This document shows, piece after piece, positions 49,854 through 61,914 of a DNA stretch of 62,302 bases (position 1 is the stretch's first letter; every line of letters starts with the position of its first letter). Below the pieces are notes generated by a model. That model was not told where the DNA came from, made no database searches, and worked only from the letters and a program-made list of their open reading frames with translations. The stretch comes from a virus. Position numbers and translations under genes: made by a program. The stretch spans positions 1 through 62,302 of the IMG/VR virus record IMGVR_UViG_3300017917_001407; one strand, given 5' to 3'.

Positions 49854-49868
49854 CGTTGTGCCACTATC

Positions 49869-50063
49869 TCAGGCGGCGATCGGTTCGGGATTCAGGCGGA
49901 GCACGTCATCCTCCCAGCGGTAGAAGGTCAGAATCTCATCGTAGATCCGATCGGCAACCTGATCAACGTAGCGGCGCTCATCTGCCTTCAGGATTGCCGC
50001 TTTGCACTGGGCGGCGATCTCATCGATGTTCAGAGCGCGGTCGGTGCGGGGGTTGTAGCGCAT
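49869..50063 (-). CDS. mini-gene product (64 aa)
   Basis: The start at 50063 is chosen by the TACAAT box 28 nt upstream; a longer frame from 50141 would read through that promoter. Predicted helical throughout (NIDEIAAQCKAAILKADERR, VDQVADRIYDEILTFY). The stop TGA is at the ninth to eleventh base of a degenerate copy of the 22-nt dyad (intact half GTGCCAC at 49858-49864). Unrecognised. Confidence 0.6.
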   Translation of the reverse strand: MRYNPRTDRALNIDEIAAQCKAAILKADERRYVDQVADRIYDEILTFYRWEDDVLRLNPEPIAA

Positions 50064-50137
50064 TTGGGGTGTCCTTTGGTTGACTTGAGTATTGTAGAGC
50101 AGGTTAGGGTCGGTGCTCAGGACCTTGTGCCAGTGCC

Positions 50138-50314
50138 TCAATCGGCATAGAGGGATTGAAAGTCCTCCACAAACTCCCGTGCCTCATCACCGCTCATGCG
50201 GGAGAGCATCTCACGGGCGACGGTCTCCCAGGAGAAGTCGTCTGCCAGGTCACAGATAGCGGACCGTGCCTGAGAGGCGCTGAGGTGAGCAGCGGTGATC
50301 TGAGCGTAGGTCAT
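50138..50314 (-). CDS. mini-gene product (58 aa)
   Basis: A helical 58-residue protein (MTYAQITAAHLSASQARSAI then DDFSWETVAREMLSRM). TACAAT box 26 nt upstream. The stop sits in a degenerate dyad with intact half GTGCCAG at 50127-50133. Function unknown. Confidence 0.6.
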   Translation of the reverse strand: MTYAQITAAHLSASQARSAICDLADDFSWETVAREMLSRMSGDEAREFVEDFQSLYAD

Positions 50315-51169: not shown

Positions 51170-51228
51170 AGGGTTCGTTTGATCTGAGATCAGTATAGAG
51201 GGAGGATGGTGGCAGAGTCAGGGGTAGG

Positions 51229-51283
51229 GTGCCAGTTCAAAAGGTGGCACAGGGTCGGCCGACCAGTTTGTGACACTAACTGT
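51229..51283. repeat. two dyads flanking a perfect 12-nt palindrome
   Basis: 51229-51250 is a 22-nt dyad in the orientation opposite to the other copies (GTGCCAGTT-n4-AGGTGGCAC on the plus strand). 51253-51264 is the perfect palindrome GGTCGGCCGACC. 51269-51283 (GTGACACTAACTGTC) is a shortened copy overlapping the EcoRI-like stop. This sits exactly at the border between the GC-rich and moderate-GC parts of the array. Confidence 0.7.
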
Positions 51284-51815
51284 CAATGATGTTAGTGATA
51301 GTCTGCAGCATAATGTCGGTCATCTCATCAACACTGAAACCCTCCACTTTACAGTGCAGGTTGTTGACACCAATCTGCACTTCATTCATCACACCATAGA
51401 GACCTTGGTGTGCAATGTGCAGAATGCGATGAATCGGATTGCCAACAACGACACCCTCACCCGATGCAAACGTCACATAAGTTGCAGTCGGATTGATAGC
51501 ACGAACGATGAAATTATTCTTAAACCAACGTTCGATTGCGTTACCTTTTGCACCTTGTTTCTTACTCTCAAAGGCAGCAATCAGTTGACCTTTGTAGAAC
51601 CAAACTCCACCATCAGGGGCACACGAACCAACACCACCAGGAATTTGGGATTGGTCTAACTTAGACTGTGCAACCAGTTCAGGATAGGAACTCTGCAGAA
51701 TCTCAGCAACACGAATCATAGCGGACTTTGCATTGTCGTCCATTGCCTTTGATTCTTCATCAAGTGCAGTCGTGCCACACTGAATCCCGCCACGAAAATT
51801 GTTGTGATGTGCCAT
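51276..51815 (-). CDS. EcoRI-like PD-(D/E)xK nuclease (179 aa)
   Basis: 179 residues. The segment APDGG (Asp68), 13 residues later FESKKQG (Glu83, Lys85), then GNAIERWFKN (91-100) reproduces the EcoRI core order PDGG...EAKHQG...GNAIERSHKN, where Asp91, Glu111 and Lys113 are catalytic and the NAIER region contacts DNA. EcoRI has 277 residues; the insertion between the EAK and NAIER segments and much of the C-terminus are missing, so this is a minimal version. No methyltransferase is visible in the window. It has its own TTGACA-18-TATTCT promoter. It could degrade host DNA or act against rivals. Catalytic activity and site are inferred. Confidence 0.7.
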   Translation of the reverse strand: MAHHNNFRGGIQCGTTALDEESKAMDDNAKSAMIRVAEILQSSYPELVAQSKLDQSQIPGGVGSCAPDGGVWFYKGQLIAAFESKKQGAKGNAIERWFKNNFIVRAINPTATYVTFASGEGVVVGNPIHRILHIAHQGLYGVMNEVQIGVNNLHCKVEGFSVDEMTDIMLQTITNIIDS

Positions 51816-51837
51816 TGCCTTTGTTTGAACTGATCTT

Positions 51838-51867
51838 AGAATACGAAGAGAACAGGAGGTCTGTCAA
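51838..51867 (-). promoter_or_regulatory. sigma70 promoter TTGACA-18-TATTCT
   Basis: On the minus strand a perfect TTGACA (51862-51867) is followed after 18 nt by TATTCT (51838-51843), 23 nt before the EcoRI-like ATG. The strongest-looking -35 in the array. Confidence 0.75.
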
Positions 51868-51874
51868 GTAGTTT

Positions 51875-51896
51875 GCACCACCTATTCAACTGGCAC
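51875..51896 (-). repeat. 22-nt dyad copy
   Basis: The minus strand reads GTGCCAGTT-GAAT-AGGTGGTGC. The TGA stop of the ligase-like gene occupies positions 9-11 of the element. Confidence 0.7.
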
Positions 51897-52782
51897 ACTG
51901 AAACCGACCGCTGTTGAAGTTAGCGTTAGAAAAGACCTCACGATTCACCAGTTTGAACATACCAAACTCATTCACCAGAACGTAACCCTCAGCATCGATT
52001 CTGTTGCCGTACAGATAAGCAGCAGGACCATCATTGCGGCAGAGGAACAAACAATCATCTTTGATCGACTTCACCAATGCCCACAGGCGCAGCAGGTTAG
52101 TATCACAATCAACGTCAGCAGGATTGACTTCTTCACCAGCACGAATGCAAGCGTTAATTTGTTGCTTAATCTTTGCTGCCTCTTTATCACTCACAAACGT
52201 TGCAGTTTGTGCTATTTGACGGGCAAACTTGCAGACCTCTTCTACATCAGCGAACGACTCCTGATTGTGCAGGATGTATGCATTCGGTTTCACGAACTTC
52301 ACCGTTTCGGTATCAGTCCAAACGGCACGATCAGGGTATGCTTCCGCGTCACGAAGATCACTCTCAGCATAGTAGCAAGTGTGTGGAGCGATGATAATTT
52401 TCTGGGAAACTACCTCAGGAAACTTGTAAGTGATCGTGTTGGGATGATACTCATCATCACCACCAAACCCAATGAAATCACCCTGATAGATGGTCTCAAA
52501 GCGAGGCAGATAATCGAAGCAAGCGTGAAGAATGTCTGCCACGTTGCCTTCATAGTGTTGATCAATCTCAGCGTGAGAGTGAGCAATACGAATCTTCTTT
52601 TTATTGAAGACTGCCTTAGTGCCCACGAAGAACTCACCGCAGGCAGGGTCAATCCCCCACACGATTGCAGGGGCACCGTCAATCTTAACGCTCAGATTGC
52701 CAGGCGTCACGAACCAGTCCAGGACGCTCAGATCGCCCGTGAGGATGGTATCTTCGGGGTGCTCTTGGTGCTTGTTCTGCAT
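51886..52782 (-). CDS. ligase-like nucleotidyltransferase, DUF6267-like (298 aa)
   Basis: 298 residues. LSVKIDGAPAIVWG (Lys33) resembles the KxDG adenylation motif I of ATP-dependent ligases; FVGTKAVF (52-59) and QGDFIGFGG with PNTITYKFP follow; EGYVLVNE (265-272) and FKLVNR (about 276-281) fit motifs IV-V. The same set marks DUF6267-type phage proteins as I remember them, proposed covalent nucleotidyltransferases. The substrate could be nucleic acid ends or protein; unknown. CATACT box 22 nt upstream, behind an intrinsic terminator. Next gene downstream is the EcoRI-like nuclease. Confidence 0.65.
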   Translation of the reverse strand: MQNKHQEHPEDTILTGDLSVLDWFVTPGNLSVKIDGAPAIVWGIDPACGEFFVGTKAVFNKKKIRIAHSHAEIDQHYEGNVADILHACFDYLPRFETIYQGDFIGFGGDDEYHPNTITYKFPEVVSQKIIIAPHTCYYAESDLRDAEAYPDRAVWTDTETVKFVKPNAYILHNQESFADVEEVCKFARQIAQTATFVSDKEAAKIKQQINACIRAGEEVNPADVDCDTNLLRLWALVKSIKDDCLFLCRNDGPAAYLYGNRIDAEGYVLVNEFGMFKLVNREVFSNANFNSGRFQCAS

Positions 52783-52803
52783 CGGTTCTCTGTTGATGGA
52801 ATC

Positions 52804-52839
52804 AGTATGGCACGAAAAAGGGGGGACCGCAATCCCCCC
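52804..52839 (-). terminator. strong intrinsic terminator plus CATACT promoter
   Basis: The minus strand GGGGGG-ATTGCGGT-CCCCCC-TTTTT (52815-52839) ends the 53.8-52.8 kb small-gene operon. It is bracketed by TGGCAC and GTGCCA, which would extend the stem. CATACT (52804-52809) begins the ligase-like transcription unit directly after it. Confidence 0.85.
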
Positions 52840-52840
52840 T

Positions 52841-52862
52841 GTGCCACTTACTGAACCGTCAC
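52841..52862 (-). repeat. 22-nt dyad copy
   Basis: The minus strand reads GTGACGGTT-CAGT-AAGTGGCAC. The TAA stop of the 71-residue gene occupies positions 13-15, a different offset from other copies. Confidence 0.75.
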
Positions 52863-53063
52863 ACTCTCAATCAATTCTTGAATCACATCTTCATCATAAA
52901 CATACGAAATCTCACCTAACACTTCTTCTTCATCTTTACCACGCAGGTTCTCAACAATCGTATCGAATACAAATTGCATCAAACACTTAACGTCCATGTC
53001 ATCAACAATACGCTCAGCGTAGTTGTCAATCAGTTGGTCAAGTTGGTTGTCAGTGAGAGTCAT
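52848..53063 (-). CDS. conserved-type small acidic protein (71 aa)
   Basis: 71 residues, helical and acidic (MTLTDNQLDQLIDNYAERIV then FVFDTIVENLRGKDEEEVLG). I recall this as one of the most recurrent small early proteins of T4-like cyanophages; function unknown, possibly host takeover. ATGA overlap with the upstream gene. Ends inside a dyad copy before a terminator. Confidence 0.7.
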   Translation of the reverse strand: MTLTDNQLDQLIDNYAERIVDDMDVKCLMQFVFDTIVENLRGKDEEEVLGEISYVYDEDVIQELIESVTVQ

Positions 53064-53218
53064 TTGAGGAGTGCGGTGAAGTTGTCACAAACGATGTTGC
53101 AAAGAGCATCCAGAACATCATCGTTCAGGAAGAATTGCTCATCATCAATCAGACTAGCATAGGAGAGAATGTCCTCCTGGATTTGTTCACGAACTGAAAT
53201 AATGTCGGTTTGTGTCAT
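53060..53218 (-). CDS. small acidic protein (52 aa)
   Basis: An ORF of 52 residues (MTQTDIISVREQIQEDILSY), helical and acidic, related in style to the 71-residue protein that follows. ATGA overlaps on both sides show tight translational coupling. Confidence 0.65.
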   Translation of the reverse strand: MTQTDIISVREQIQEDILSYASLIDDEQFFLNDDVLDALCNIVCDNFTALLK

Positions 53219-53409
53219 CGGAGAACGTGACGATAATCAATGGATTTGATGCGCCAACCTGTTGCACAGGTGATCTCTTCTACTAAATCATCCTCATCAT
53301 CTGCCTCCCAGATTTGACCGATTGTTTCATCCATCAACCGATTGTATTCGTCGGTGTGGATGTCTTCATCATCAAAATCAAACTCAATGTCAGTAACTTG
53401 AAATAACAT
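53215..53409 (-). CDS. conserved-type small acidic protein (64 aa)
   Basis: 64 residues (MLFQVTDIEFDFDDEDIHTD; EEITCATGWRIKSIDYRHVL). The strand-acidic-loop-helix-strand pattern is one I recall from many cyanophages. Coupled on both sides (TGATG/ATGA). Role unknown. Confidence 0.7.
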   Translation of the reverse strand: MLFQVTDIEFDFDDEDIHTDEYNRLMDETIGQIWEADDEDDLVEEITCATGWRIKSIDYRHVLR

Positions 53410-53573
53410 CAGACTTCATCCCTCATTTCAGTGAGTTTGTCATAGAGATCACTGCAGATACCTGCATCATAACCAGTGATCTCAACCATTTCATGCCAAC
53501 TTTCTTTTGTGTGGTGCTCAATGATTGCCAGAATGGCATCCAGTTCCTCAAAGGTGAGAGTGGTGGGAGTCAT
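53409..53573 (-). CDS. conserved-type small helical protein (54 aa)
   Basis: A 54-residue ORF (MTPTTLTFEELDAILAIIEH; EITGYDAGICSDLYDKLTEM), predicted helical. Same operon, coupled to its neighbours. Function unknown. Confidence 0.65.
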   Translation of the reverse strand: MTPTTLTFEELDAILAIIEHHTKESWHEMVEITGYDAGICSDLYDKLTEMRDEV

Positions 53574-53677
53574 CGGATTAGAAACACAAGCAAAGGAAGA
53601 ACAATCAAAAGATGATAAACCTTCAGAGTTTGAGAAGTTCCATCTTTATAGTGAATGATGAGAAGATCGCTATTCAT
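53570..53677 (-). CDS. micro-protein with a C-terminal membrane helix (35 aa)
   Basis: MNSDLLIIHYKDGTSQTLK followed by VYHLLIVLPLLVFLIR: a short strand pair and a tail anchor. The stop overlaps the next ATG (ATGA). Very small, but coupling on the 3' side and Shine-Dalgarno-independent overlap favour it being real. Confidence 0.5.
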   Translation of the reverse strand: MNSDLLIIHYKDGTSQTLKVYHLLIVLPLLVFLIR

Positions 53678-53680
53678 GAT

Positions 53681-53806
53681 TCAGTAATCGTAATCAGCGG
53701 CAAGGTACTCATTGACATCGAACTTTTCATCACGAAGTTCAGGAATGTCAAGGTCAAAGATTTCACCAGGAGCGTCTTGGATTTCAGACCAGAGTTCATC
53801 AAACAT
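53681..53806 (-). CDS. small acidic protein (41 aa)
   Basis: 41 residues (MFDELWSEIQDAPGEIFDLD; ends YLAADYDY). First gene of the 53.8-52.8 kb operon. Its 33-nt promoter/leader is identical to that of the cyAbrB-ArdA gene at 55.07 kb. Confidence 0.65.
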   Translation of the reverse strand: MFDELWSEIQDAPGEIFDLDIPELRDEKFDVNEYLAADYDY

Positions 53807-53836
53807 GGTGTGTCTCTCAGGGACGAATGTAATGTA
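53804..53836 (-). repeat. 33-nt leader repeat (copy 1)
   Basis: Identical base for base to 55065-55097. Includes two overlapping TACATT boxes (53826-53836), the CCTGAGAGACACACC leader and the ATG. A shared early promoter and 5' UTR. Confidence 0.8.
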
Positions 53837-53843
53837 TCAGGGA

Positions 53844-54092
53844 TCAGGAGCGTTTGGTAGTTTTCTGTGCCACTTTCACAACTGGCACATCAGTGTCAAC
53901 AACTACCAACAATTGAGTCACGATTGTGTTAATAAAGCGCAGCACGGTTTGAATCACCTTGCGAACTTTTTCGTTGCCGTTGTTTTCTTTGTAAGCACGA
54001 ACACCAAATTGTACAGTGCCCACAACGATTGCGGCGATGGTAGCAACATTGAAAATCAGAGTTTGAATGAATTTGTCAGAAAAGAGTTTCAT
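53844..54092 (-). CDS. small membrane protein (82 aa)
   Basis: The start at 54092 (MKLFSDKFIQTLIFNVATIA) is chosen because the upstream extension crosses the TACATT/CATACT promoter (54139-54149). Hydrophobic helix at about 10-32, then basic YKENNGNEKVRKVIQTVL and a second hydrophobic stretch ending VVVDTDVPVVKVAQ. The VPVVKV segment is encoded by a full dyad copy. Possibly an inner-membrane early protein. Confidence 0.65.
   Translation of the reverse strand: MKLFSDKFIQTLIFNVATIAAIVVGTVQFGVRAYKENNGNEKVRKVIQTVLRFINTIVTQLLVVVDTDVPVVKVAQKTTKRS
53867..53888 (-). repeat. 22-nt dyad copy inside a coding 3' end
   Basis: The minus strand reads GTGCCAGTT-GTGA-AAGTGGCAC, translated as VPVVKVA in the 82-residue protein, ending 21 nt before the stop codon. 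Confidence 0.75.
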
Positions 54093-54180
54093 TACATTTG
54101 GGGTGTGGGAGGTGAGTGTAGAGAATTCCTCAACCACGAATGTAGTATGGCACGGGGTTCGGGTAGGCACAAGGGGTCTT

Positions 54181-54202
54181 GTGCCACTTGCTGAACTGGC
54201 AC
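54181..54202 (-). repeat. 22-nt dyad copy, intergenic
   Basis: The minus strand reads GTGCCAGTT-CAGC-AAGTGGCAC, followed by a second hairpin GGCACAAG-ACCC-CTTGTGCC that shares its GGCAC. No gene ends here; it stands about 90 nt upstream of the 82-residue gene. Confidence 0.75.
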
Positions 54203-54300
54203 AAGATATCTTGACTGTTGCCCTTTGGGTCTTTAAAGTGGCTAAACCCTTCGGATCAACGATACCAAAGGTATCTATAATATTTAAGATTTCTAGATAT

Positions 54301-54332
54301 TATTCTCAATAAGGAAGATTTTATTGAGAATA
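54301..54332. repeat. inverted repeat TATTCTCAATAA-n8-TTATTGAGAATA
   Basis: Perfect 12-bp arms around an 8-nt loop. The 11-nt core of the arms is identical to the inverted repeat at 55689-55718, which also has an 8-nt loop of different sequence. Confidence 0.85.
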
Positions 54333-54533
54333 TAAACAAAGCACATCTAGATGGTGTGGGAAGGGGTGAGTGGGGTGAAGCACATATTCTTGCACATAAG
54401 GCGGGCTCATGATCCCGTGTGTGTCAAGAATGCCCGCACATATTCTTGCACATCTAGACGCTCATGTGTATGTGTGTCGAGATGTATGTTATATGTGTCG
54501 AGATCTAGTTTATCGTATATTGTATATCGATAT

Positions 54534-54573
54534 AAAAAAGGATCTCGACGAGTTTGTATGTCTCATCGAGATC
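54534..54573 (-). terminator. intrinsic terminator after the cyAbrB-ArdA gene
   Basis: The minus strand GATCTCGATGAG and CTCGTCGAGATC form a 12-bp stem with one G-U pair around a 9-nt loop, followed by CTTTTTTAT. It lies 20 nt past the stop codon. Confidence 0.85.
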
Positions 54574-54593
54574 ATGATGTCATCTAGTCGAGA

Positions 54594-55067
54594 TCACCAG
54601 TTCTTGTTAAACACGAACCCATCTTCGAAATCAAAATCATAACGAAGATTGCAGTTCCAGGTAGCATCCCAGTCAACTACCACGAACGAAGGAGCATCAT
54701 AACCGTATACATCAGTGGTAAACTGTTCGGCAAAGTCTGCTTCAGAATCATAAGAACCCTGATAAGCATCTTCGAAATGTCCCAGATCATTCTCATCATA
54801 GAGTTCCAGAAATGCATCAATTGCATCTGCACCATAACGATTGCAGAGTTCCTGATACACTTCCTGATTCTCTTCGGAGATGTCATTCTCCAAAGTCTCA
54901 TTGTTGATCAGACCCTTAACAGTCAGCAGTTCAGTGTAGAATGCAGTATACTGAAGTTTGCCATCGTGATCATACCCACAGGCACGAACGATTTCAGACA
55001 TCTTAGCAGGCGGGTTTTGTGCTTGCATCTCATTGACCTTAGCAAGCAGATTGGAACCAGTCAGCAT
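54594..55067 (-). CDS. cyAbrB-like / ArdA-like anti-restriction fusion (157 aa)
   Basis: The start at 55067 is chosen from the 33-nt leader repeat; the longer frame crosses the promoter. Residues 2-54 (LTGSNLLAKVNE, RACGYDHDGK, FYTELLTVKGL) follow the N-terminal pattern of cyanobacterial AbrB-like regulators. Residues 68-157 (NRYGADAIDAFLELYDEND, FEDAYQGSYDSEADFAEQF, VVDWDATW, EDGFVF) follow the ArdA DNA-mimic anti-restriction pattern, very acidic. ArdA blocks type I restriction enzymes by mimicking DNA. The fusion could place the mimic under host-regulator interactions. Terminator 20 nt downstream. Functional reading is inferred. Confidence 0.7.
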   Translation of the reverse strand: MLTGSNLLAKVNEMQAQNPPAKMSEIVRACGYDHDGKLQYTAFYTELLTVKGLINNETLENDISEENQEVYQELCNRYGADAIDAFLELYDENDLGHFEDAYQGSYDSEADFAEQFTTDVYGYDAPSFVVVDWDATWNCNLRYDFDFEDGFVFNKNW

Positions 55068-55097
55068 GGTGTGTCTCTCAGGGACGAATGTAATGTA
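55065..55097 (-). repeat. 33-nt leader repeat (copy 2)
   Basis: Identical to 53804-53836. TACATT boxes at 55087-55097, leader and ATG of the cyAbrB-ArdA gene. Confidence 0.8.
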
Positions 55098-55128
55098 GAA
55101 CGGATTCAGGCGGAGCACAAGGGGGTGT

Positions 55129-55150
55129 GTGCCACTTTGGTAACTGTCAC
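55129..55150 (-). repeat. 22-nt dyad copy
   Basis: The minus strand reads GTGACAGTT-ACCA-AAGTGGCAC. The TGA stop of the 68-residue gene is at positions 2-4. Confidence 0.75.
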
Positions 55151-55353
55151 ACCTCAGCAAGCAGGAGTTTGTGAATACGATCTGCCTCTTCTAGGATATC
55201 ACCTTCCAGGCGATCCCATTCTACCCAATCATAGGCAGATCCTGCGGTTTCATATGAACCATCGGGCAGCAGCGGAGCATACATCAAAACCCGCTGATTG
55301 TTTGCATCCAGAGTATACGTGCAGTTGTTCAGTTTTGAGATGGCAAAAACCAT
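55147..55353 (-). CDS. small conserved-type protein (68 aa)
   Basis: 68 residues, beta then helix (MVFAISKLNNCTYTLDANNQ; ending GDILEEADRIHKLLLAEV). TACATT box at 55371-55376, 18 nt upstream of the ATG with the shared ACATTCGTnCCTGAGA leader. I recall similar cyanophage proteins. Function unknown. Confidence 0.65.
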   Translation of the reverse strand: MVFAISKLNNCTYTLDANNQRVLMYAPLLPDGSYETAGSAYDWVEWDRLEGDILEEADRIHKLLLAEV

Positions 55354-55412
55354 TGGATTTCTCAGGAACGAATGTAGAATAACCCCTCACGATTCAAACC
55401 GCAAGGGGTCTT

Positions 55413-55434
55413 GTGCCACTTATTCAACTGTCAC
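55413..55434 (-). repeat. 22-nt dyad copy
   Basis: The minus strand reads GTGACAGTT-GAAT-AAGTGGCAC. TGA stop of the 59-residue gene at positions 9-11. Followed by CCCCT/AGGGG (55383-55408), a weak terminator-like hairpin. Confidence 0.75.
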
Positions 55435-55603
55435 AAGTGTTGATTAAACCTTCCTCAATCAGATCACGAAGAAACCGACCATAAAACCCTTGCAACCAAG
55501 TGTATGCTTTGGTGTCATAGATCTGTTGGAAAAGTGTAATCACCTCATCATCAGAATCCAGACCAGTTTGCTCAAACCGAATCAGCAGATCAGTGTCAAG
55601 CAT
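55424..55603 (-). CDS. small helical protein (59 aa)
   Basis: The start at 55603 is set by the TACATT box at 55624-55629, 21 nt upstream. MLDTDLLIRFEQTGLDSDDE and AYTWLQGFYGRFLRDLIEEG give a helical protein whose LQGxYGRxxxxLIExG pattern I recall in small proteins of marine phages. Function unknown. Confidence 0.65.
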   Translation of the reverse strand: MLDTDLLIRFEQTGLDSDDEVITLFQQIYDTKAYTWLQGFYGRFLRDLIEEGLINTCDS

Positions 55604-55665
55604 TGTGAAATGTTTTGAGAACGAATGTATACTAACCCACCACGTGGCAGATATCAACCCCCCAT

Positions 55666-55687
55666 GTGCCAGTTTCCCAACTGTCCT
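55666..55687 (-). repeat. 22-nt dyad copy (diverged arm)
   Basis: The minus strand reads AGGACAGTT-GGGA-AACTGGCAC; here the inner part is fully complementary. It stands 37 nt upstream of the TACATT box of the 59-residue gene, with no stop codon of a gene inside. Confidence 0.6.
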
Positions 55688-55688
55688 C

Positions 55689-55718
55689 ATTCTCAATAAC
55701 AAGAGTCTTATTGAGAAT
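55689..55718. repeat. inverted repeat ATTCTCAATAA-n8-TTATTGAGAAT
   Basis: Perfect 11-bp arms, 8-nt loop, adjacent to the dyad at 55666-55687. Arms identical to those at 54301-54332; loop different. No T run on either strand. Confidence 0.85.
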
Positions 55719-55720
55719 CA

Positions 55721-55742
55721 GAACCAGTCTTATAACTGGCAC
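55721..55742 (-). repeat. degenerate 22-nt dyad
   Basis: The minus strand begins GTGCCAGTT, then ATAA and a decayed right arm GACTGGTTC. It starts 1 nt after the TAA stop of the 50-residue gene at 55744-55896. Confidence 0.5.
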
Positions 55743-55743
55743 A

Positions 55744-55896
55744 TTACTCGAACGGATCGAACTCTTTCACCCTACAATGGATATCCTCATCACCTTCGAG
55801 TTGCAATAGTTCTCGCCAATTAATATTATCTAGATCCAGATCATCATAACACATGATGTCGAGTGTAACCTGTATGATGCGCTTTTGTGCTAACAT
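55744..55896 (-). CDS. mini-gene product (50 aa)
   Basis: An ORF, MLAQKRIIQVTLDIMCYDDL followed by DLDNINWRELLQLEGDEDIH and an acidic end. An internal ATG at 55854 (MCYDDLDLDN) is an equally likely start. The TAA stop is directly followed by a decayed dyad, as in other members of the array. No family recognised. Confidence 0.5.
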   Translation of the reverse strand: MLAQKRIIQVTLDIMCYDDLDLDNINWRELLQLEGDEDIHCRVKEFDPFE

Positions 55897-55927
55897 GAGG
55901 TCTAGATGTATATGTGTCTAGATTCTA

Positions 55928-56080
55928 TCATGCATAATGTCGATATGCAAGTGATTCGTAATCTTGCCCATCTCGTGCATAATCTTCGTCGAGTTCCTGT
56001 GCATCTCGTGCATAGTACTCATCGAGATCTGCGTAATCGTTGCCACTATAAGTGTAGTCGAGATCGTAGTCGTCGTACAT
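55928..56080 (-). CDS. Tyr/Asp-rich mini-gene product (50 aa)
   Basis: 50 residues rich in Asp and Tyr (MYDDYDLDYTYSGNDYADLD; EYYARDAQELDEDYARDGQD). It has a good promoter TTGCAT-17-TACAAT with the TGC extension, 31 nt upstream. Acidic/tyrosine-rich, possibly a nucleic-acid or protein mimic. Repeated CTCGACGAG motifs lie in and around it. Confidence 0.6.
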   Translation of the reverse strand: MYDDYDLDYTYSGNDYADLDEYYARDAQELDEDYARDGQDYESLAYRHYA

Positions 56081-56110
56081 AAGCTCGTCGAGATTTGTGA
56101 ACGCTTTCGT

Positions 56111-56139
56111 ATTGTAGCATAAAACTCGACGAGATGCAA
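56111..56139 (-). promoter_or_regulatory. promoter TTGCAT-17-TGCTACAAT
   Basis: On the minus strand TTGCAT (56134-56139) and TACAAT (56111-56116) with the TGC extension, the same -10 as the GC-rich array although the surroundings are AT-rich. Serves the Tyr/Asp-rich gene. Confidence 0.65.
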
Positions 56140-56341
56140 TCTAGACTAGATGTAGAGCTCGTCGAGATTCATACCAGTATATATACGGTCTCGCTGAGTT
56201 TATGAGTATTCTCGTTTAGATTTTAACACGAACTTATAAGAATGTCAAGTCTATTCGAGATCTTGTGTGGGTCTCGGAGCATTTCGGCGGGCGGTGGGAC
56301 TTGACAACTGCGCGTTCTTATGGTACGCTCGCTAAGCCCAC

Positions 56342-56488
56342 AAGACCCAGAAGGTTTCTACAAGCATTAACACAAGACCCAGAGGCATTAACACAAGACC
56401 CAGAAGGTTTCTACAAGCATTCAGAAGCATTAACACAAGACCCAGAAGGTTTCTACAAGCATTCAGAAGCATTAACACATAAGACCAG
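56342..56488. repeat. 21/42-nt tandem repeat block
   Basis: AAGACCCAGA recurs at 56342, 56374, 56395 and 56437, with a decayed fifth unit at 56481. Spacings are 32, 21, 42 and 44 nt. Long units add GGTTTCTACAAGCATTCAGA. The block is open in the plus frame, so it could be read as short peptide repeats, but no credible gene surrounds it. Confidence 0.8.
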
Positions 56489-56620
56489 GCATTCTCAACA
56501 ATATACTCATTTGATTCTCATTTACAAAATATTATTGAGAATATTATAAAAAACACAAATATATTTTTCTTAAAGATAGGTTAAATGTACCTCCGAATAC
56601 ATAACCCACAAATTTCGGTA

Positions 56621-56650
56621 TTGTATAGAATAGGTTTCTCATAGTATACT
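56621..56650 (+). promoter_or_regulatory. possible promoter TTGTAT-18-TATACT (plus strand)
   Basis: A weak -35 and a good -10 about 53 nt before the GIY-YIG start. A TATAAATC late-promoter near-match (56650-56657) overlaps it. Which is used cannot be told. Confidence 0.35.
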
Positions 56651-56702
56651 ATAAATCACATTTCACTATATACTATACACTTTGTTACACCATACAATAA
56701 CT

Positions 56703-57446
56703 ATGGAAAGAGGCATCATTTACCTTATTCTCAACAAGCAAACAGGTGAAAAATACGTCGGAAACACCACACTTGCGATGAACAAAGAATGGGTACACCA
56801 CATAGATCGTTCTAAAAGAATGTCATCCGAACCCTTACATAAGGCATTTCGTCAGTATGGTGTGCATAACTTTATGATAAAAGAACTGGATGAATATGAT
56901 AATACATGTTTAGACAGTAAGTTAAATGAATGGATTGAAAAATATAAACCCGAATACAATCCTGCTCCTGTTAATGTAGAAAAAGCGGAGGAAATAATAC
57001 AGGAAAAACGGAAGATACCTGTAAAAAGAAACTATAATGCAGATAACTTAAAACCATTTAATGAGCATACACGTGGTAATGGTAAACATCTTGGATTAAA
57101 GATAAGAGGTAAGAACTTACAAACTGGTGTATGCAAAGATTATGACAGTGCAAGAGATGCGGCAACAGATGTGACAGGTGATCCGAATGCAAATGGAAAT
57201 ATACTAAATGCTGCCCGTAAATATAGAACTGCCTATGGTCATCGCTGGCAGATCTTAGAAGACAAGAATAAGAAAAAAGCGGTATTTGGTGTCAATAAAA
57301 AAACCGAACTCATTGAAGTTCGGTATGAAAGTATTGCCGCTGCTGTGAGAGATCTTGGTGGTTCAGAATACAATACTGAAATTGTAAGAAGTCTACGCAA
57401 TCCTGGTAAGTATACCTGGCGTGGTTACTTTTGGTTCTTCGGTTGA
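56703..57446 (+). CDS. GIY-YIG homing-type endonuclease with two NUMOD-like repeats (247 aa)
   Basis: The only plus-strand gene. The start at 56703 is preferred over an upstream in-frame ATG because it leads directly into the domain. GIIY (4-7) and KYVG (17-20) form the GIY-YIG signature. HIDRSKR, ELDEYD and EWIEKYKPEYN supply the conserved Arg, Glu and Asn. After a basic linker, two copies of a NUMOD/IENR1-like DNA-binding unit follow: GKNLQTGVCKDYDSARDA... near 135-185, and ELIEVRYESIAAAVRDLG with TWRGYFWFF at the end. Such enzymes are mobile or mediate marker exclusion between phages. It lies beside repeats, probably as a free-standing insertion. Confidence 0.85.
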   Translation: MERGIIYLILNKQTGEKYVGNTTLAMNKEWVHHIDRSKRMSSEPLHKAFRQYGVHNFMIKELDEYDNTCLDSKLNEWIEKYKPEYNPAPVNVEKAEEIIQEKRKIPVKRNYNADNLKPFNEHTRGNGKHLGLKIRGKNLQTGVCKDYDSARDAATDVTGDPNANGNILNAARKYRTAYGHRWQILEDKNKKKAVFGVNKKTELIEVRYESIAAAVRDLGGSEYNTEIVRSLRNPGKYTWRGYFWFFG

Positions 57447-57487
57447 ATCTCATTCTTATAGTGCAGAAAGTAGACAATAGATAGAAA

Positions 57488-57643
57488 TCAGAAGATTGGG
57501 AGTATTTCTGAATCTATGTAACCTTGTTTCTTCACGTGTTGTTCCCATAATGTGGCATCCTCAATGTTATAAAAAATTGCGGTTTGTTTGGTGATTTTGT
57601 TCTTCTTGGATTTGAAGTATACAACTTGGTATTTCATTGTCAT
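57488..57643 (-). CDS. small conserved-type protein (51 aa)
   Basis: A 51-residue ORF (MTMKYQVVYFKSKKNKITKQ; FYNIEDATLWEQHVKKQGY), strand pair plus helix ending in a short strand. I recall close relatives in cyanophages. It overlaps the C-terminal tail of the membrane protein upstream by 77 nt, so the true end of one of them is uncertain. Start could also be the second ATG at 57637. Confidence 0.6.
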   Translation of the reverse strand: MTMKYQVVYFKSKKNKITKQTAIFYNIEDATLWEQHVKKQGYIDSEILPIF

Positions 57644-57809
57644 TCCAATGTCTTACGACTCCTGCAATAATGAATAAGTTAGTAATGAGATAAGTGCCGA
57701 ATATAACAGTCCGTAAACGAGCAATGTGATCTGCTTCTCTGTCATTTTTTGATGCCTTTTCGCCTAGTGCCTTTGCCCAGAATCTCCATAACGTTTTTCT
57801 CCTTTTCAT
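57567..57809 (-). CDS. small membrane protein (80 aa)
   Basis: 80 residues. A basic N-terminus (KTLWRFWAKALGEKASKNDR) then one membrane helix (TVIFGTYLITNLFIIAGVVRHW). The FWAKALGEKAsxxDREAD pattern recurs in cyanophage early regions from memory, usually ending soon after the helix; the last 25 residues here overlap another gene and may reflect loss of the usual stop. Role unknown. Confidence 0.65.
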   Translation of the reverse strand: MKRRKTLWRFWAKALGEKASKNDREADHIARLRTVIFGTYLITNLFIIAGVVRHWNDNEIPSCILQIQEEQNHQTNRNFL

Positions 57810-58108
57810 TTTGGTCCCTTAGGTGGATAACCTCCATAATACTTGACATTCAGTTGAAGATCTCTTAACTTTTGTCCTGGGTTTCTTGAATCAATATGAA
57901 TTAGATTTGGTTCATTTGGAATTTGCGATTGACCTGGTGTCAGTTGAGAAGTCTTGTAACGATCACCGATCTTTGGATTAAACGGAAGTAAATCCGCCTC
58001 AATCTTGATTTCTTTCTGCTTTTGTTGAGAACTACGAAGATCAAGCATATTCGTATTCATTAACTTTGGAGCAGTCATTTGTTCTTGAAACTGTTTGAAA
58101 GTTTTCAC
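57806..58108 (-). CDS. putative capsid-targeted protein (100 aa) under a late promoter
   Basis: 100 residues opening MKTFKQFQEQM, strongly like the T4 capsid targeting peptide (MKTYQEFIAEA). The remainder is Gln/Lys/Pro-rich: ADLLPFNPKIGDRYKTSQL and GQKLRDLQLNVKYYGGYPPK. It lies among early-type genes but has its own AATAAATA late promoter 28 nt upstream, the expected timing for a head protein. ATGA overlap on both sides. Packaging with the genome is inferred. Confidence 0.6.
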   Translation of the reverse strand: MKTFKQFQEQMTAPKLMNTNMLDLRSSQQKQKEIKIEADLLPFNPKIGDRYKTSQLTPGQSQIPNEPNLIHIDSRNPGQKLRDLQLNVKYYGGYPPKGPK

Positions 58109-58371
58109 TTCTCTTTTCTGATAATGGTCTCAGAATATTTATTTTCACGATGACCCAGGCATACCAGTTCTTTCCACTGTCGTTTATAACATAAAGCTAA
58201 TAAACGATCGTTACGGTGAATCGAACATGCCTCATAGTTCTTATCATCTTTGGGTTTGACTCCCATCTCAATCGTGATGTATTCATCGCCCTTGAAATAG
58301 ACCCACCCCTCAATGTGTTCTTTCCACTTCACATAATCATTGACCTTTGGTTCATACATAGGCAGATTCAA
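58105..58371 (-). CDS. small conserved-type protein (88 aa)
   Basis: 88 residues, a beta-rich SH3-like layout (YVKWKEHIEGWVYFKGDEYI; EMGVKPKDDKNYEACSIHRN; ALCYKRQWKELVCLG). I recall relatives in cyanophages. The 3' end carries the late promoter of the next gene. Function unknown. Confidence 0.65.
   Translation of the reverse strand: MNLPMYEPKVNDYVKWKEHIEGWVYFKGDEYITIEMGVKPKDDKNYEACSIHRNDRLLALCYKRQWKELVCLGHRENKYSETIIRKEK
58136..58143 (-). promoter_or_regulatory. late promoter AATAAATA inside an early-type operon
   Basis: The minus strand reads AATAAATA 28 nt upstream of the capsid-targeted 100-residue gene, within the preceding coding sequence. Confidence 0.6.
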
Positions 58372-58633
58372 GTGGAGTTTGTTTTGGAATCATTGCGGAA
58401 TAAGGAGTCGTATTCTCAATGTTTACTTTATCACCGATTGTCTTGGAGTTGGCAGGAGCGTGGTAACACTTGGTTTTTTGATTGTAGAATCCCCAGATAC
58501 TACGAGCAGTCCCACCGCCATTGTAACTAAACCTGTGATGATTATGAATCCAGATTGCAACAACATGAGTTTTAAATGAAACTTGTTCATAAGAATAACC
58601 TTCTGGTGGTGAATGAGGAAAATCAATCGACAT
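58352..58633 (-). CDS. conserved-type protein (93 aa)
   Basis: The start at 58633 (MSIDFPHSPPEGYSYEQVSF) overlaps the upstream stop by 11 nt; a longer frame from 58687 is less likely. FKTHVVAIWIHNHHRFSYNG and VRSIWGFYNQKTKCYHAP-like segments (here ARSIWGFYNQKTKCYHAP) suggest a small beta-rich protein with several His residues. Recurrent in cyanophages from memory; unknown role. Confidence 0.65.
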   Translation of the reverse strand: MSIDFPHSPPEGYSYEQVSFKTHVVAIWIHNHHRFSYNGGGTARSIWGFYNQKTKCYHAPANSKTIGDKVNIENTTPYSAMIPKQTPLESAYV

Positions 58634-58787
58634 CGGGAACGGCACGAAGATGATTGGGATTGTATCCACTTTCGATGTAAATCTCAAGTTGTTGCCTACA
58701 TTCTTCTTTTGTCAGTTTGCGCTGATGTGGTTCGATTAAACTCCATCCAGTGGTGGAGTAATCTTCAATACGATACAGTTGTTCCAT
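58623..58787 (-). CDS. small conserved-type protein (54 aa)
   Basis: A 54-residue ORF (MEQLYRIEDYSTTGWSLIEP; TKEECRQQLEIYIESGYNPN): strand-helix. The start overlaps the stop of the oxygenase-like gene by 1 nt. The pattern TxxGWxLI...LTKExCxxxLExxI is familiar from cyanophages. Role unknown. Confidence 0.65.
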   Translation of the reverse strand: MEQLYRIEDYSTTGWSLIEPHQRKLTKEECRQQLEIYIESGYNPNHLRAVPDVD

Positions 58788-59440
58788 TATTTCAGTTCAA
58801 GAGGTGAAGAAATTTTTGAAATTTTTCCCCTGAACATGAGATTGAAACTGAGTGTGACTCGAACATCATCGTTCTTAAATGGCATCTCAGATTCGTTCAC
58901 GGAATGTGGCAACCAGGAGGGGAAGATTAAAACATTTCCAGGGTGAAAAGGAACGGTATAACGACTGGTATTGAATAGAGTCGGTTTTTTATAGTCTGGT
59001 TCCAAAACCTGTACGGCGGGGCGTGGATCACAAAATGTTGTTCCAGAACAAAACTCTGGTCCCTTCAGATGAATCACACCACTCAAATATGAGTTTGGAT
59101 GAATGTGTTGAGGATGAACATAGGTTTCGGACGTTGAAAAGTTTGCCCACATACTGGTGATGTACAGATCATCATAAACCAGTTGATTGAACTCACAAAT
59201 GCTCTTCCCCAGTTTAAGAATGCCATCACAAAACTCCTGCATTTCATCAAGAAGATGCAGTTGATCTCCCTTACGCAAATGTACCGCCGAACTACTCGTC
59301 GTCTCTTGCTTCTTCAAAAAATGAACAACATGGTCGATTAACGCCGAAGAGTCGTTGAAGTTTTGATCAAATGTTGTGATAAAAACTGGAGAGGTAAAAA
59401 GAGACAGAACTTCTCCATTGGTATTTGTTTGTTCTTTCAT
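58787..59440 (-). CDS. 2OG-Fe(II) oxygenase-like protein (217 aa)
   Basis: 217 residues resembling the TIGR02466-type 2-oxoglutarate/iron oxygenases common in T4-like cyanophages. Candidate iron ligands lie in HPQHIHPNSYLSGVIHL (His112/His114) and FPSWLPHSV (His179); Arg194 in RVTLSFN is the likely 2OG anchor. Possible substrates are nucleic acids, proteins or metabolites. It is expressed with the early-type operon. Family likely; reaction unknown. Confidence 0.75.
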   Translation of the reverse strand: MKEQTNTNGEVLSLFTSPVFITTFDQNFNDSSALIDHVVHFLKKQETTSSSAVHLRKGDQLHLLDEMQEFCDGILKLGKSICEFNQLVYDDLYITSMWANFSTSETYVHPQHIHPNSYLSGVIHLKGPEFCSGTTFCDPRPAVQVLEPDYKKPTLFNTSRYTVPFHPGNVLIFPSWLPHSVNESEMPFKNDDVRVTLSFNLMFRGKISKISSPLELK

Positions 59441-59667
59441 GTCGTAAATGCATCAATGATACCAGATTCATATTCATCCACCAAAGCAAACTTCTGCGCC
59501 TTAACAACATTTGGCATGATCAGATTATGATATCGATCATCAAAACCTTCTTCTTCTGAAAGAAGTTCAAATGCTTCCGTATCATTTTCGGCAATCAGTG
59601 AAACGACTCCACCATATTCGGAAGACGGAAACGGAACCCAGTAGTCAACAATGTAAAGAGATTTCAT
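59437..59667 (-). CDS. small conserved-type protein (76 aa)
   Basis: 76 residues (MKSLYIVDYWVPFPSSEYGG; VSLIAENDTEAFELLSEEEG), beta-alpha, acidic. The stop overlaps the oxygenase-like start (ATGA). I recall it as a cyanophage family often next to such oxygenases. Note that MKSLYIV is not a capsid targeting peptide (no QF). Confidence 0.7.
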   Translation of the reverse strand: MKSLYIVDYWVPFPSSEYGGVVSLIAENDTEAFELLSEEEGFDDRYHNLIMPNVVKAQKFALVDEYESGIIDAFTT

Positions 59668-59719
59668 TGGTATTTCTAAATTACTCCTCGATTTTAAATG
59701 AATGAGAAAGATTTGTCAA

Positions 59720-59866
59720 CTACCATAGAAATTCTGCCGTAAAATAATCAACGGTCATTTCAAGACGAGCAGCAGTGTTTTCAATGTAATCATCAACCAG
59801 TTCAGGGCAATCTTCTTGAAGAATCAGATAATACTGATACCAGAGCGGAGAAAGAGAGGCAATCAT
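59720..59866 (-). CDS. small helical protein (48 aa)
   Basis: An ORF of 48 residues (MIASLSPLWYQYYLILQEDC; AARLEMTVDYFTAEFLW), predicted helical. Coupled to the upstream gene by ATGA. Unknown function. Confidence 0.6.
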   Translation of the reverse strand: MIASLSPLWYQYYLILQEDCPELVDDYIENTAARLEMTVDYFTAEFLW

Positions 59867-60012
59867 TTTGCGTAACGACAATTGGGGTGAGATTGTGAAT
59901 GTTCGACACAGATTTGATCATATGCCTTGAACATTTCTTGATCACGTTTGATGATCAGTGCATTCCAGATCAGAATGGCAATCAAAGCAAGAAAGATATA
60001 GGACGTTTTCAT
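59863..60012 (-). CDS. small membrane protein (49 aa)
   Basis: An N-terminal membrane helix (KTSYIFLALIAILIWNALII) followed by a basic/helical tail with two cysteines (EMFKAYDQICVEHSQSHPNC). Recurrent cyanophage micro-protein from memory. Coupled on both sides. Confidence 0.65.
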   Translation of the reverse strand: MKTSYIFLALIAILIWNALIIKRDQEMFKAYDQICVEHSQSHPNCRYAK

Positions 60013-60287
60013 CAGCAGGCACCATGAAAAGGATTACCAACCTGAGGTAGATTCGCATTATCACGGGTTTCGATGTAACCCAGTGCCAAACGCTCACGAA
60101 TCTCCAAAAGCATCTCCACACGGTTCAAAAACTTCTTGGACATTTGACCCGCTTCTTTGAAGGTCAGAATCTTCAAATACCACTCTTTGCTAATATCACC
60201 ATAGGGAGTCTTCACAGGATAGAAGTCAACAATCATGTTGCCGTCTTTGCTGGTTAGTTGTGGCGTGGAGAGTTGTGCCAGTGCCAT
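60012..60287 (-). CDS. conserved-type protein (91 aa)
   Basis: 91 residues (MIVDFYPVKTPYGDISKEWY; FKEAGQMSKKFLNRVEMLLE), alpha/beta. The stop overlaps the next start (TGATG). Family known to me only as conserved hypothetical in cyanophages. Confidence 0.65.
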   Translation of the reverse strand: MALAQLSTPQLTSKDGNMIVDFYPVKTPYGDISKEWYLKILTFKEAGQMSKKFLNRVEMLLEIRERLALGYIETRDNANLPQVGNPFHGAC

Positions 60288-60320
60288 CAGGTCCTCCCTT
60301 GATTACTTTTGTATTATAGG

Positions 60321-60524
60321 TCAGAAGGACGGCACCACATCGTTGCGTATGCCAGTTTCTGAAGTGTCCATCTGCTCCCAGTAGGAATAGAGTTTGTTAT
60401 ACAGTGCCGAAACACTTCCATATTCTCTTGCGATCATTCTTTCATCAGAAATTGTTAAGTTCTGCAATGCGGAAAGAACGATACCTACTTCATAAACATT
60501 TAAATTTACATTAATTTCTTCCAT
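60321..60524 (-). CDS. small conserved-type protein (67 aa)
   Basis: The start at 60524 (MEEINVNLNVYEVGIVLSAL) rather than the in-frame 60629, since the latter would overlap the signal-peptide gene heavily; the chosen start overlaps it by nothing. DERMIAREYGSVSALYNKLY is highly characteristic of a recurrent cyanophage family. Function unknown. Confidence 0.7.
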   Translation of the reverse strand: MEEINVNLNVYEVGIVLSALQNLTISDERMIAREYGSVSALYNKLYSYWEQMDTSETGIRNDVVPSF

Positions 60525-60528
60525 ACAT

Positions 60529-60900
60529 TTAGTCCCAAGATACGTTTTGAACATAAAAACCAGGCATGACACTTGACCATGATCCAAGTTGACCAACACT
60601 ACCAAATTTATATTCCCATTTATAGGCAAACTTATTATGACTGTCCCAAGTCATAAAACCTTCTTTCTTATCAAACCAAGATTTGATTGATAGACCAAAA
60701 CGATTTGAAAAGATGTTACGAGTGCGAAGAAATCCACCTTTTTCACGGGTTTCAATCACAACACACAAGTCAGTCATTGGTTCACCCTGATACATCAAAG
60801 CACAAGAAGTTTCATAACGAAATGGTTGATAAGTTTTTGCCTCTTGTGCATATGAAGGTGATGTGAACAAAAGTGTGGTCAAAAGAAGAAACTTTTTCAT
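60529..60900 (-). CDS. secreted/periplasmic protein with signal peptide (123 aa)
   Basis: 123 residues. The N-terminus MKKFLLLTTLLFTSPSYA is a textbook Sec signal with cleavage after SYA (residue 18). The mature part has two cysteines (Cys33, Cys46) suited to a disulphide, TRNIFSNRFGLSIKSWFD and FMTWDSHNKFAYKWEYKFG. An exported phage protein could modify the host envelope or block superinfection; this is inference. ATGA overlap with the upstream gene. Confidence 0.75.
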   Translation of the reverse strand: MKKFLLLTTLLFTSPSYAQEAKTYQPFRYETSCALMYQGEPMTDLCVVIETREKGGFLRTRNIFSNRFGLSIKSWFDKKEGFMTWDSHNKFAYKWEYKFGSVGQLGSWSSVMPGFYVQNVSWD

Positions 60901-61043
60901 ACGATAGATTTCTTTGAATTCATCATAGCACGGCGGGCAGAATATGCCTCAAACTCAGATGCAAATGATGCAATAGTCTGTCCAGTATCGGTCCAGACCA
61001 GATACCAACGATTCACAAACTGTCGAATGTAAATGGGTTTCAT
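60897..61043 (-). CDS. small protein (48 aa)
   Basis: A 48-residue ORF (MKPIYIRQFVNRWYLVWTDT; TIASFASEFEAYSARRAMMN). Strand pair followed by an FxAYxARRA helix. Coupled at both ends (ATGA). Function unknown. Confidence 0.65.
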   Translation of the reverse strand: MKPIYIRQFVNRWYLVWTDTGQTIASFASEFEAYSARRAMMNSKKSIV

Positions 61044-61201
61044 ACAGACAAACTCACATCAATCTCTTTAACATTCAATCCACACAGTTGTTCATAAACA
61101 CGATTGCAGATGAGAGTTGGTGCTTTCTTTGCTTTGGATTTCTCATACCAGATGGTCATACAACCATCGTAGGTTTCAACACGAACACGATAGTTTTTCA
61201 T
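61040..61201 (-). CDS. small protein (53 aa)
   Basis: A 53-residue ORF (MKNYRVRVETYDGCMTIWYE; KKAPTLICNRVYEQLCGLNV). Beta-hairpin then helix, in the same style as the 48-residue neighbour. TGATG junction with the upstream gene, ATGA with the next. Confidence 0.65.
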   Translation of the reverse strand: MKNYRVRVETYDGCMTIWYEKSKAKKAPTLICNRVYEQLCGLNVKEIDVSLSV

Positions 61202-61410
61202 CAGTTTTCCTCAGGATAGAGTTTCCATCCATCAGGGCAAATGCCCATTTCTTCACAGCGCACCTCATAAACAATGCGCTTCAACAAATGCAGAGGCATT
61301 TCCTGCTCAATCGTTTTCTGAATGGTGCGGCGGATCTGTTGATCTTGAACGGTGTCGCTAACCATACTAAGTTCTTTTACTTTTGCCAGAAGGGCATCAC
61401 CAGTAAGCAT
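61201..61410 (-). CDS. small protein with a cyAbrB-like N-terminus (69 aa)
   Basis: 69 residues. MLTGDALLAKVKELSMVSD repeats the N-terminal module of the cyAbrB-ArdA fusion and of cyanobacterial AbrB-like regulators, but the following domain differs: EQEMPLHLLKRIVYEVRCEE then GICPDGWKLYPEEN. A TATAAT box (61437-61442) 27 nt upstream gives it its own promoter. It could be a decoy or partner of host AbrB (inference). Confidence 0.6.
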   Translation of the reverse strand: MLTGDALLAKVKELSMVSDTVQDQQIRRTIQKTIEQEMPLHLLKRIVYEVRCEEMGICPDGWKLYPEEN

Positions 61411-61436
61411 GAGAGGTGCGTGTCGATTACCTTTGT

Positions 61437-61442
61437 ATTATA
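61437..61442 (-). promoter_or_regulatory. TATAAT -10 box
   Basis: Perfect TATAAT on the minus strand, overlapping the stop of the SprT-like gene, 27 nt before the LTG-module gene. A weak -35 (TCCGAA) lies 17 nt further upstream. Confidence 0.55.
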
Positions 61443-61914
61443 CTGCCTGCATGAGGCGGTTCGGAAACCACCGTACCACTTTGGGAACTGGCACACCTCT
61501 TTTTTCAGTCAGATACTCCACATATAGTGTTTCTTCTTGCTCCCGTGCCTCAATTTCGTGTGGTTGATGCCAATAGTCATAAAGTTCGACTGGAACTTTA
61601 CCATAATACATTTTTCCACGCTTGGACCGCAGCGAACCGACCACCCACTGTCTCAGATGAGTCAGTTCGTGCAAAAGAGTTTTTATATACAACTCCTCAT
61701 CAAAATAGGTGCTAATTTCAATCAGAAACTCACGGGGTCGATAAGATTCACCCACAACGTCGCAATAACCATAAACACCTTCACGTCTTAACCCCCGATG
61801 AAGAATCTCTACCTCAATTTTGTGACGGGGCAGAAACTTATTCAGAAACCAAGTGGTAACGTCCTCACAGAGGCGTTTGTTATAACCATATCCAGAAGTT
61901 TGAATGAAAGACAT
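61438..61914 (-). CDS. SprT-like zinc metalloprotease-like protein (158 aa)
   Basis: The ATG at 61914 is used; a TTG 21 nt upstream would add seven residues. HELTH (82-86) in LIKTLLHELTHLRQWVVG-like context is a zincin motif, and HQPHEIEAREQE downstream could give the third ligand. SprT/Wss1-type proteases act on DNA-bound proteins. Its 3' end contains a 22-nt dyad copy translated GVPVPKVV, so the C-terminal tail may be dictated by the DNA element. Confidence 0.7.
   Translation of the reverse strand: MSFIQTSGYGYNKRLCEDVTTWFLNKFLPRHKIEVEILHRGLRREGVYGYCDVVGESYRPREFLIEISTYFDEELYIKTLLHELTHLRQWVVGSLRSKRGKMYYGKVPVELYDYWHQPHEIEAREQEETLYVEYLTEKRGVPVPKVVRWFPNRLMQAV
61473..61494 (-). repeat. 22-nt dyad copy inside a coding 3' end
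   Basis: The minus strand reads GTGCCAGTT-CCCA-AAGTGGTAC, translated VPVPKVV in the SprT-like protein, 35 nt before the stop. The same peptide pattern (VPVxKV) arises from the copy at 53867. Confidence 0.75.

Follow-up and report, generated by a model that had tools for sequence, protein, structure and literature searches.

A 24-bp palindrome upstream of cyanophage early promoters is a candidate site for a host regulator, most likely PlmA

Introduction

Why should one palindromic element recur, copy after copy, at the junctions between genes in a single part of a virus genome, often lying across a stop codon? The question is raised by the IMG/VR virus record IMGVR_UViG_3300017917_001407, whose 62,302 bases were analysed here in full (hereafter the window) and whose left half carries genes for T4-like head, tail and baseplate proteins. 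An earlier note on this DNA had described a 22-nt dyad at the ends of early genes and had proposed that it serves as an operator for a regulator, as an mRNA 3' stabiliser or as a homology joint for swapping early-gene cassettes. We find that the element is the upstream part of promoters, a role that is well supported, and we consider it a candidate activator site in the early sigma70-type promoters of the Kyanoviridae and of the unrelated siphophage Mic1, with the host protein PlmA (PMM1637 in Prochlorococcus) as the most likely activator. The operator proposal is thereby kept in the form of a site for a host activator, the stabiliser proposal falls away, and the homology joint is left as a possible secondary effect.

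Results

The element is a 24-bp palindrome confined to one part of the window

Allowing up to three mismatches on both strands, we found 15 matches to the dyad in the window, whereas shuffled sequence gave 0.03 on average and never more than 1. All 15 are confined to 51.2–61.5 kb, and the structural half is without a match at this threshold. The recurrence described for positions 51229, 51875, 52841, 53867, 54181, 55129, 55413, 55666 and 61473 is therefore real, and weaker copies are present at 49858, 50127 and 55721, as had been claimed. The dyad itself stands but its length of 22 nt does not, as conservation extends over 24 bp, TGTGMCA..TGKCACA (flanking A in 95% and T in 89%), and the clear copies take the form TGTGMCASTTn4AASTGKCACA. 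The conserved G-G mismatch between the arms is likewise genuine, and the half-sites tend to differ at position 8, reading TGTGMCAGTT and TGTGMCACTT. Searches for Rfam families and tRNAs gave no match in the window.

The element stands at a fixed distance from promoters and start codons

A pattern scan of IMG/VR found the element in at least 119 stretches, and we aligned 155 non-redundant exact copies for promoter geometry. A TTG begins at +9 after the 22-mer in 62 of the 155 copies, and a -10 box of the form TANNNT lies at +31/32 in 105 of them, the placement of a sigma70-type promoter with a 16–17 bp spacer. The promoter-side end of the palindrome lies 8 bp before the -35 box and 30 bp before the -10 box. 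The same TTG and -10 peaks appear, reversed, on the other side of the element. In a larger set of 576 phage copies, found with a symmetric pattern, 465 (81%) had a -10 box exactly at that offset on one side or both, 128 of them on both, while control offsets gave 37–57 (~8%). The element functions whichever way round it lies and can serve a pair of divergent promoters, and the position of the -10 box would put its centre ~53 bp upstream of the transcription start.

The element had been described as one of gene ends, and its closeness to stop codons holds, 89% of copies in phage ACG-2014f being within 40 nt of a stop. The fixed distance, however, is to the start codon of the next gene and not to the previous stop. 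At the 27 ACG-2014f sites the median distance to the next annotated start is 60 nt (interquartile range (IQR) 58–61), and 89% of the sites, but 4.6% of positions taken at random, lie 55–70 nt before a start; spacing from the previous stop varies more (IQR -13 to 0). Every clear copy in the window has the next ATG 57–61 nt after it, except for 54181 (87 nt). Stop codons are overlapped because a promoter unit of ~60 nt is packed between nearly touching genes. Two other known promoter sites were considered and rejected: a T4-type MotA site would be in the wrong position, and a sigma54 -24 box (TGGCAC..TTGC) has the wrong spacing, and cyanobacteria are not known to have sigma54.

Copies mark early genes in siphophage Mic1

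Mic1, a Microcystis siphophage unrelated to T4-like phages, carries 48 copies, and 48/48 fall within 52.6–72.2 kb, the gp49–gp73 block. By RNA-seq, gp49–gp73 except gp61 and gp67 form the early class, with gp69–gp73 and gp49 peaking first (PMC11237433). We found the element 67–79 nt upstream of 13 of the 23 early genes, gp69–gp73 included, and no element at gp61, which is on the other strand, or at gp67, the two genes left out of the early class (PMC11237433). In Mic1, the element marks early genes. The timing evidence comes from this phage, and by extension the element would mark early genes in other phages, the window included; for the window genes we infer early expression because of the Mic1 timing and because an anti-restriction-like gene lies behind the 55129 copy.

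Between 65.9 and 72.1 kb of Mic1 lies an unusual promoter array, in which ~40 copies form tandem promoter units of 56–62 bp, two to five in a row before single immediate-early genes.

The same element precedes host yfr2 genes

An exact-core scan of cellular genomes (all GTDB, 257 Gb) returned 13 hits, about chance level by our estimate, and host sites became apparent only with a search restricted to cyanobacteria and set against a control pattern. Across 386 cyanobacterial genomes, the symmetric pattern with up to one mismatch found 28 sites compared to 5 for the control. At ten site-bearing loci the Rfam family Cyano-1 (Yfr2) begins 39–41 nt after the site. Conversely, among 49 Yfr2 genes picked by Rfam alone, the best site lay at a gap of 36–44 in 24, where 5.5 were expected (p=6e-11). 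Across 121 genomes of the picocyanobacterial family there are 8 occurrences of the half-site TGTGACAGTTnnGATA, and six of them are at Yfr2. By these counts the element is rare in host genomes.

Citing Lambrecht et al. 2018, PMC6778093 describes PMM1637 as a GntR regulator, common to all cyanobacteria, that binds yfr2 promoters with the CGRE1 motif, a motif absent from the rest of the MED4 genome. The PlmA family, of which PMM1637 is a member, joins the PII-PipX complex (PMC6243067). A GntR domain was present in all three cyanobacterial genomes tested and was not found in the nine element-positive phages tested. Judged by its position at yfr2, the element is presumably the published CGRE1.

Two further observations concern host loci. 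Four cyanobacterial genomes (L280–L283) share a conserved site, TGTACCAGTTTTRYAAGTGGCACA, at which no Yfr2 was found by Rfam in the three tested (L280, L281 and L283), and a further host target of this regulator may lie there. In small picocyanobacterial genomes (L348–L352), the gene of the Yfr10 small RNA (sRNA; RF02362) lies directly upstream of a yfr2 promoter that bears the half element.

The element is distributed unevenly among phages

Copies are plentiful in S-PM2, P-SSM2, S-CRM01, S-SRM01, ACG-2014f, S-SSM7 and Mic1 and few in Syn9 and S-CAM4; Syn9 has two at up to two mismatches, near 48.6 and 53.0 kb. A reversed control pattern gave 0–1 matches in phage genomes. Pattern scans of T4, Ma-LMM01, S-TIM5, PSS2, P-SSP7 and HTVC008M did not find the element. 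Its absence from HTVC008M, a kyanovirid that infects Pelagibacter, fits a host factor, and the transcriptome paper on Ma-LMM01 reports no phage-specific motif, consistent with zero copies in that phage. A contig with two promoter-linked copies also occurs in a metagenome-assembled genome labelled Flavobacteriales TMED113 (L138), and it may be a mis-binned cyanophage contig.

A host activator and the alternatives to it

We propose PlmA because the element occurs in the same register at host yfr2 genes, because PMM1637 is named as bound there (PMC6778093), and because the nine phages have no GntR gene. PlmA already in the cell at infection would bring the host's RNA polymerase to the dozens of phage early promoters, the phage promoters carrying what would be near-perfect versions of the site upstream of the host's conserved sRNA gene yfr2 (CGRE1). 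The phages thus probably borrow a host regulator, most likely PlmA, to start infection. Several observations weigh against this proposal. About half of the 49 Yfr2 genes have no good element, and in picocyanobacterial yfr2 promoters only the distal half is clear. Mic1 gp49, also immediate-early, is without a copy. The cyanophages Ma-LMM01, S-TIM5, PSS2 and P-SSP7 lack the element, so that the presence of the host factor does not force its use. PlmA was put at ~400 chains per cell in S. elongatus in a review (PMC6243067), which is few for dozens of sites.

The most serious alternative, though an unlikely one in our judgement, is that the site in these early promoters is read by a different protein, activator or repressor, whether a phage-encoded regulator, possibly one for early shut-off, or another host factor such as one of the CRP family. 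Many dimeric regulators recognise palindromic sites, PlmA binding to the phage copies is a prediction, and the phage copies match the element far better than most host yfr2 promoters do. Against this, blastp found no Mic1 protein with homologues in all element-positive phages and confined to them, so any regulator common to the phages would need to be out of reach of blastp; a host factor is favoured for the same reason. A phage-encoded regulator shared by Mic1 and the Kyanoviridae was rejected: the nearest case by blastp, a Dam-like methylase, is present in only four of the positive phages, and the nine phages tested have no GntR domain. A site centred near -53 generally suits an activator better than a repressor, and the regulator presumably activates. 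The host yfr2 register and the naming of PMM1637 there likewise count against a different protein and for PlmA.

Far less probable is that the arms form an RNA hairpin at gene ends, acting as a terminator or as the mRNA 3' stabiliser that had been suggested. In its favour are the overlap with stop codons and the folding energies of some copies (-11 to -12 kcal/mol), but several perfect copies fold at only ~-4 kcal/mol, no T-run follows the element, it is the next promoter and start codon that stand at a constant distance, and the element is active in both orientations. We compared the arms in the 337 copies that have a promoter to just one side. Positions 5 and 20 could pair in 51%, compared to 50% expected if the columns were independent, and positions 8 and 17 are GG or CC in 69%, that is, anti-paired. 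The arms are thus not an RNA stem, because pairing covariation is missing at 5/20 and reversed at 8/17. The earlier note had named independent variation of the arms, as in an ordinary terminator stem, as a result that would refute its own proposal and had held that the G-G mismatch argues against a plain hairpin; independence at 5/20 and anti-pairing at 8/17 count against any RNA stem and agree with the second remark. An intrinsic terminator or 3' stabiliser hairpin was accordingly rejected, compensatory stem changes not being seen in the 337 copies.

Least probable of all, and very doubtful, is that the element-promoter cassettes are retained as places where early genes are swapped by recombination, or at least behave as such, as proposed for the promoter early stem-loops (PeSLs) of T4-like phages; neither the constant spacing to the promoter nor the sites at host yfr2 require a recombination role. 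Two indels between ACG-2014f isolates run from cassette to cassette in register (C9 43215–43472, offsets -41/-42, and 36342–38257, offsets -49/-50), and an inserted HNH gene in these isolates has a cassette on one side; most indel ends lie elsewhere, and some, in an alignment that is noisy in divergent genes, are artefacts. Recombination of the PeSL kind is possible as a side effect and is compatible with the promoter role.

Element copies and neighbouring features in the window

All copies with a promoter lie on the minus strand. The copy at 51228..51251 has a -10 box TATACT and ATG 51169 58 nt downstream; it had been called inverted, but it stands upstream of its gene on the minus strand like the others, and what is reversed is merely its G/C asymmetry at position 8. 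It is followed by TGTGCCAGTTGAATAGGTGGTGCA at 51874..51897 (-35 TTGACA; ATG 51815, 58 nt) and by the copy at 52840..52863 (-10 CATACT; ATG 52782, 57 nt, of a DUF6267 protein). Four elements are perfect. The one at 53866..53889 (-10 TACATT; ATG 53806, 59 nt) lies within the 3' end of the upstream open reading frame, where direct reading of the sequence gives VPVVKV, so that the element is translated through, as claimed. That at 54180..54203 (-35 TTGTGC, -10 CATACT; ATG 54092, 87 nt) faces TTGACT and a weak -10 on its plus side and is possibly a divergent promoter pair. The others are at 55128..55151 (-10 region TTCTACATTACATT; ATG 55067, 60 nt, of an anti-restriction-like protein, phrog_36653) and 55412..55435 (-35 TTGCGG, -10 TATTCT; ATG 55353, 58 nt). 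At 55665..55688 the distal end is damaged (GAGGACAGTT...), and a -35 TTGATA, a -10 TAGTAT and ATG 55603 (61 nt) follow; the copy TGTGCCAGTTCCCAAAGTGGTACG at 61472..61495 has a -10 TATAAT and ATG 61410 (61 nt).

Among the weaker copies, those at 49857..49880 and 50126..50149 are half elements. They had been called decayed, and they are indeed weaker, yet each keeps its promoter-proximal half, AGTGGCACA in the first (-10 TATACT; ATG 49797, 59 nt) and ACTGGCACA in the second (-10 TACAAT; ATG 50063, 62 nt). A degenerate copy (20/24) at 60348..60371, 60 nt before ATG 60287 and with a -10 TATAAT, was absent from the earlier list. A second degenerate copy (20/24), at 55720..55743, is without a clear promoter or gene and adjoins an inverted repeat, ATTCTCAATAA..TTATTGAGAAT.

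Other features of this region stand apart from the element. The genes at 53806 and 55067, two different early genes, have an identical upstream leader, TACATTACATTCGTCCCTGAGAGACACACC-ATG, which suggests recent copying of a whole promoter-leader cassette. Direct repeats of ACACAAGACCCAGAAGGTTTCTACAAGCATT occur at 56335–56480 and 56703–57446 (+), beside a homing-endonuclease-like gene (phrog_3404) on the plus strand, opposite to its neighbours. The non-coding stretches 54290–54600 and 55860–56250 hold many TCTAGA and CTCGACGAG/TCGAGAT-type short palindromes.

Discussion

On balance we think that at least two unrelated cyanophage groups, the Kyanoviridae and siphophage Mic1, have each placed near-perfect host PlmA sites before their early promoters. 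The start of infection would thereby be coupled to the sensing of nitrogen and light by the host's PII-PipX-PlmA system, and the tens of high-affinity sites on phage DNA could draw PlmA away from the host Yfr2 network by titration. In abundant viruses of cyanobacteria, the early promoters would then have a named host protein as their likely activator, a proposal that is directly testable. If PlmA is the factor, early infection success would depend on the nitrogen and light state of the host, and phages of different families would share one entry point into host regulation. The sequence signature (24-bp site, 30 bp, -10 box) also offers a way to call early promoters and genes in uncultured cyanophages.

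Doron et al. reportedly described, in 2016, a new regulatory element that precedes early genes in Syn9 and in further T4-like cyanophages. The element here is probably the same one, and the Mic1 timing fits this: both belong to T4-like cyanophages and would serve their early genes, and both are conserved across the group and distinct from T4 MotA-type control. The copies described here differ in being more numerous and in occurring also in a siphophage and in host yfr2 promoters. T4 middle promoters are similar in that an activator site, the MotA box, stands in a sigma70-type phage promoter. The MotA box takes the place of the -35 region, near -30, whereas many of the present promoters retain a -35 box and have the site centred at about -53.

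The PeSL cassettes of T4-like coliphages (Arbiol 2010; Comeau 2014; cited in PMC4503421) resemble the present system in that short promoter cassettes are repeated between small early genes, with some gene gain and loss between cassettes. They differ in that the dyad here lies upstream of the -35 box and is not a conserved RNA stem or terminator, having neither covariation nor a T-run. The closest host setting is that of CGRE1, which lies upstream of yfr2; the element is in the same register at many yfr2 genes by the Rfam position of Yfr2, and picocyanobacterial copies at yfr2 show TGTGACAGTT. Phage copies differ from CGRE1 in being full 24-bp palindromes, tens per genome, at protein-coding early genes. 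An early-gene element in T4-like cyanophages has already been reported, and the points of interest here are the use of the present element by phages of different families and its match at host yfr2.

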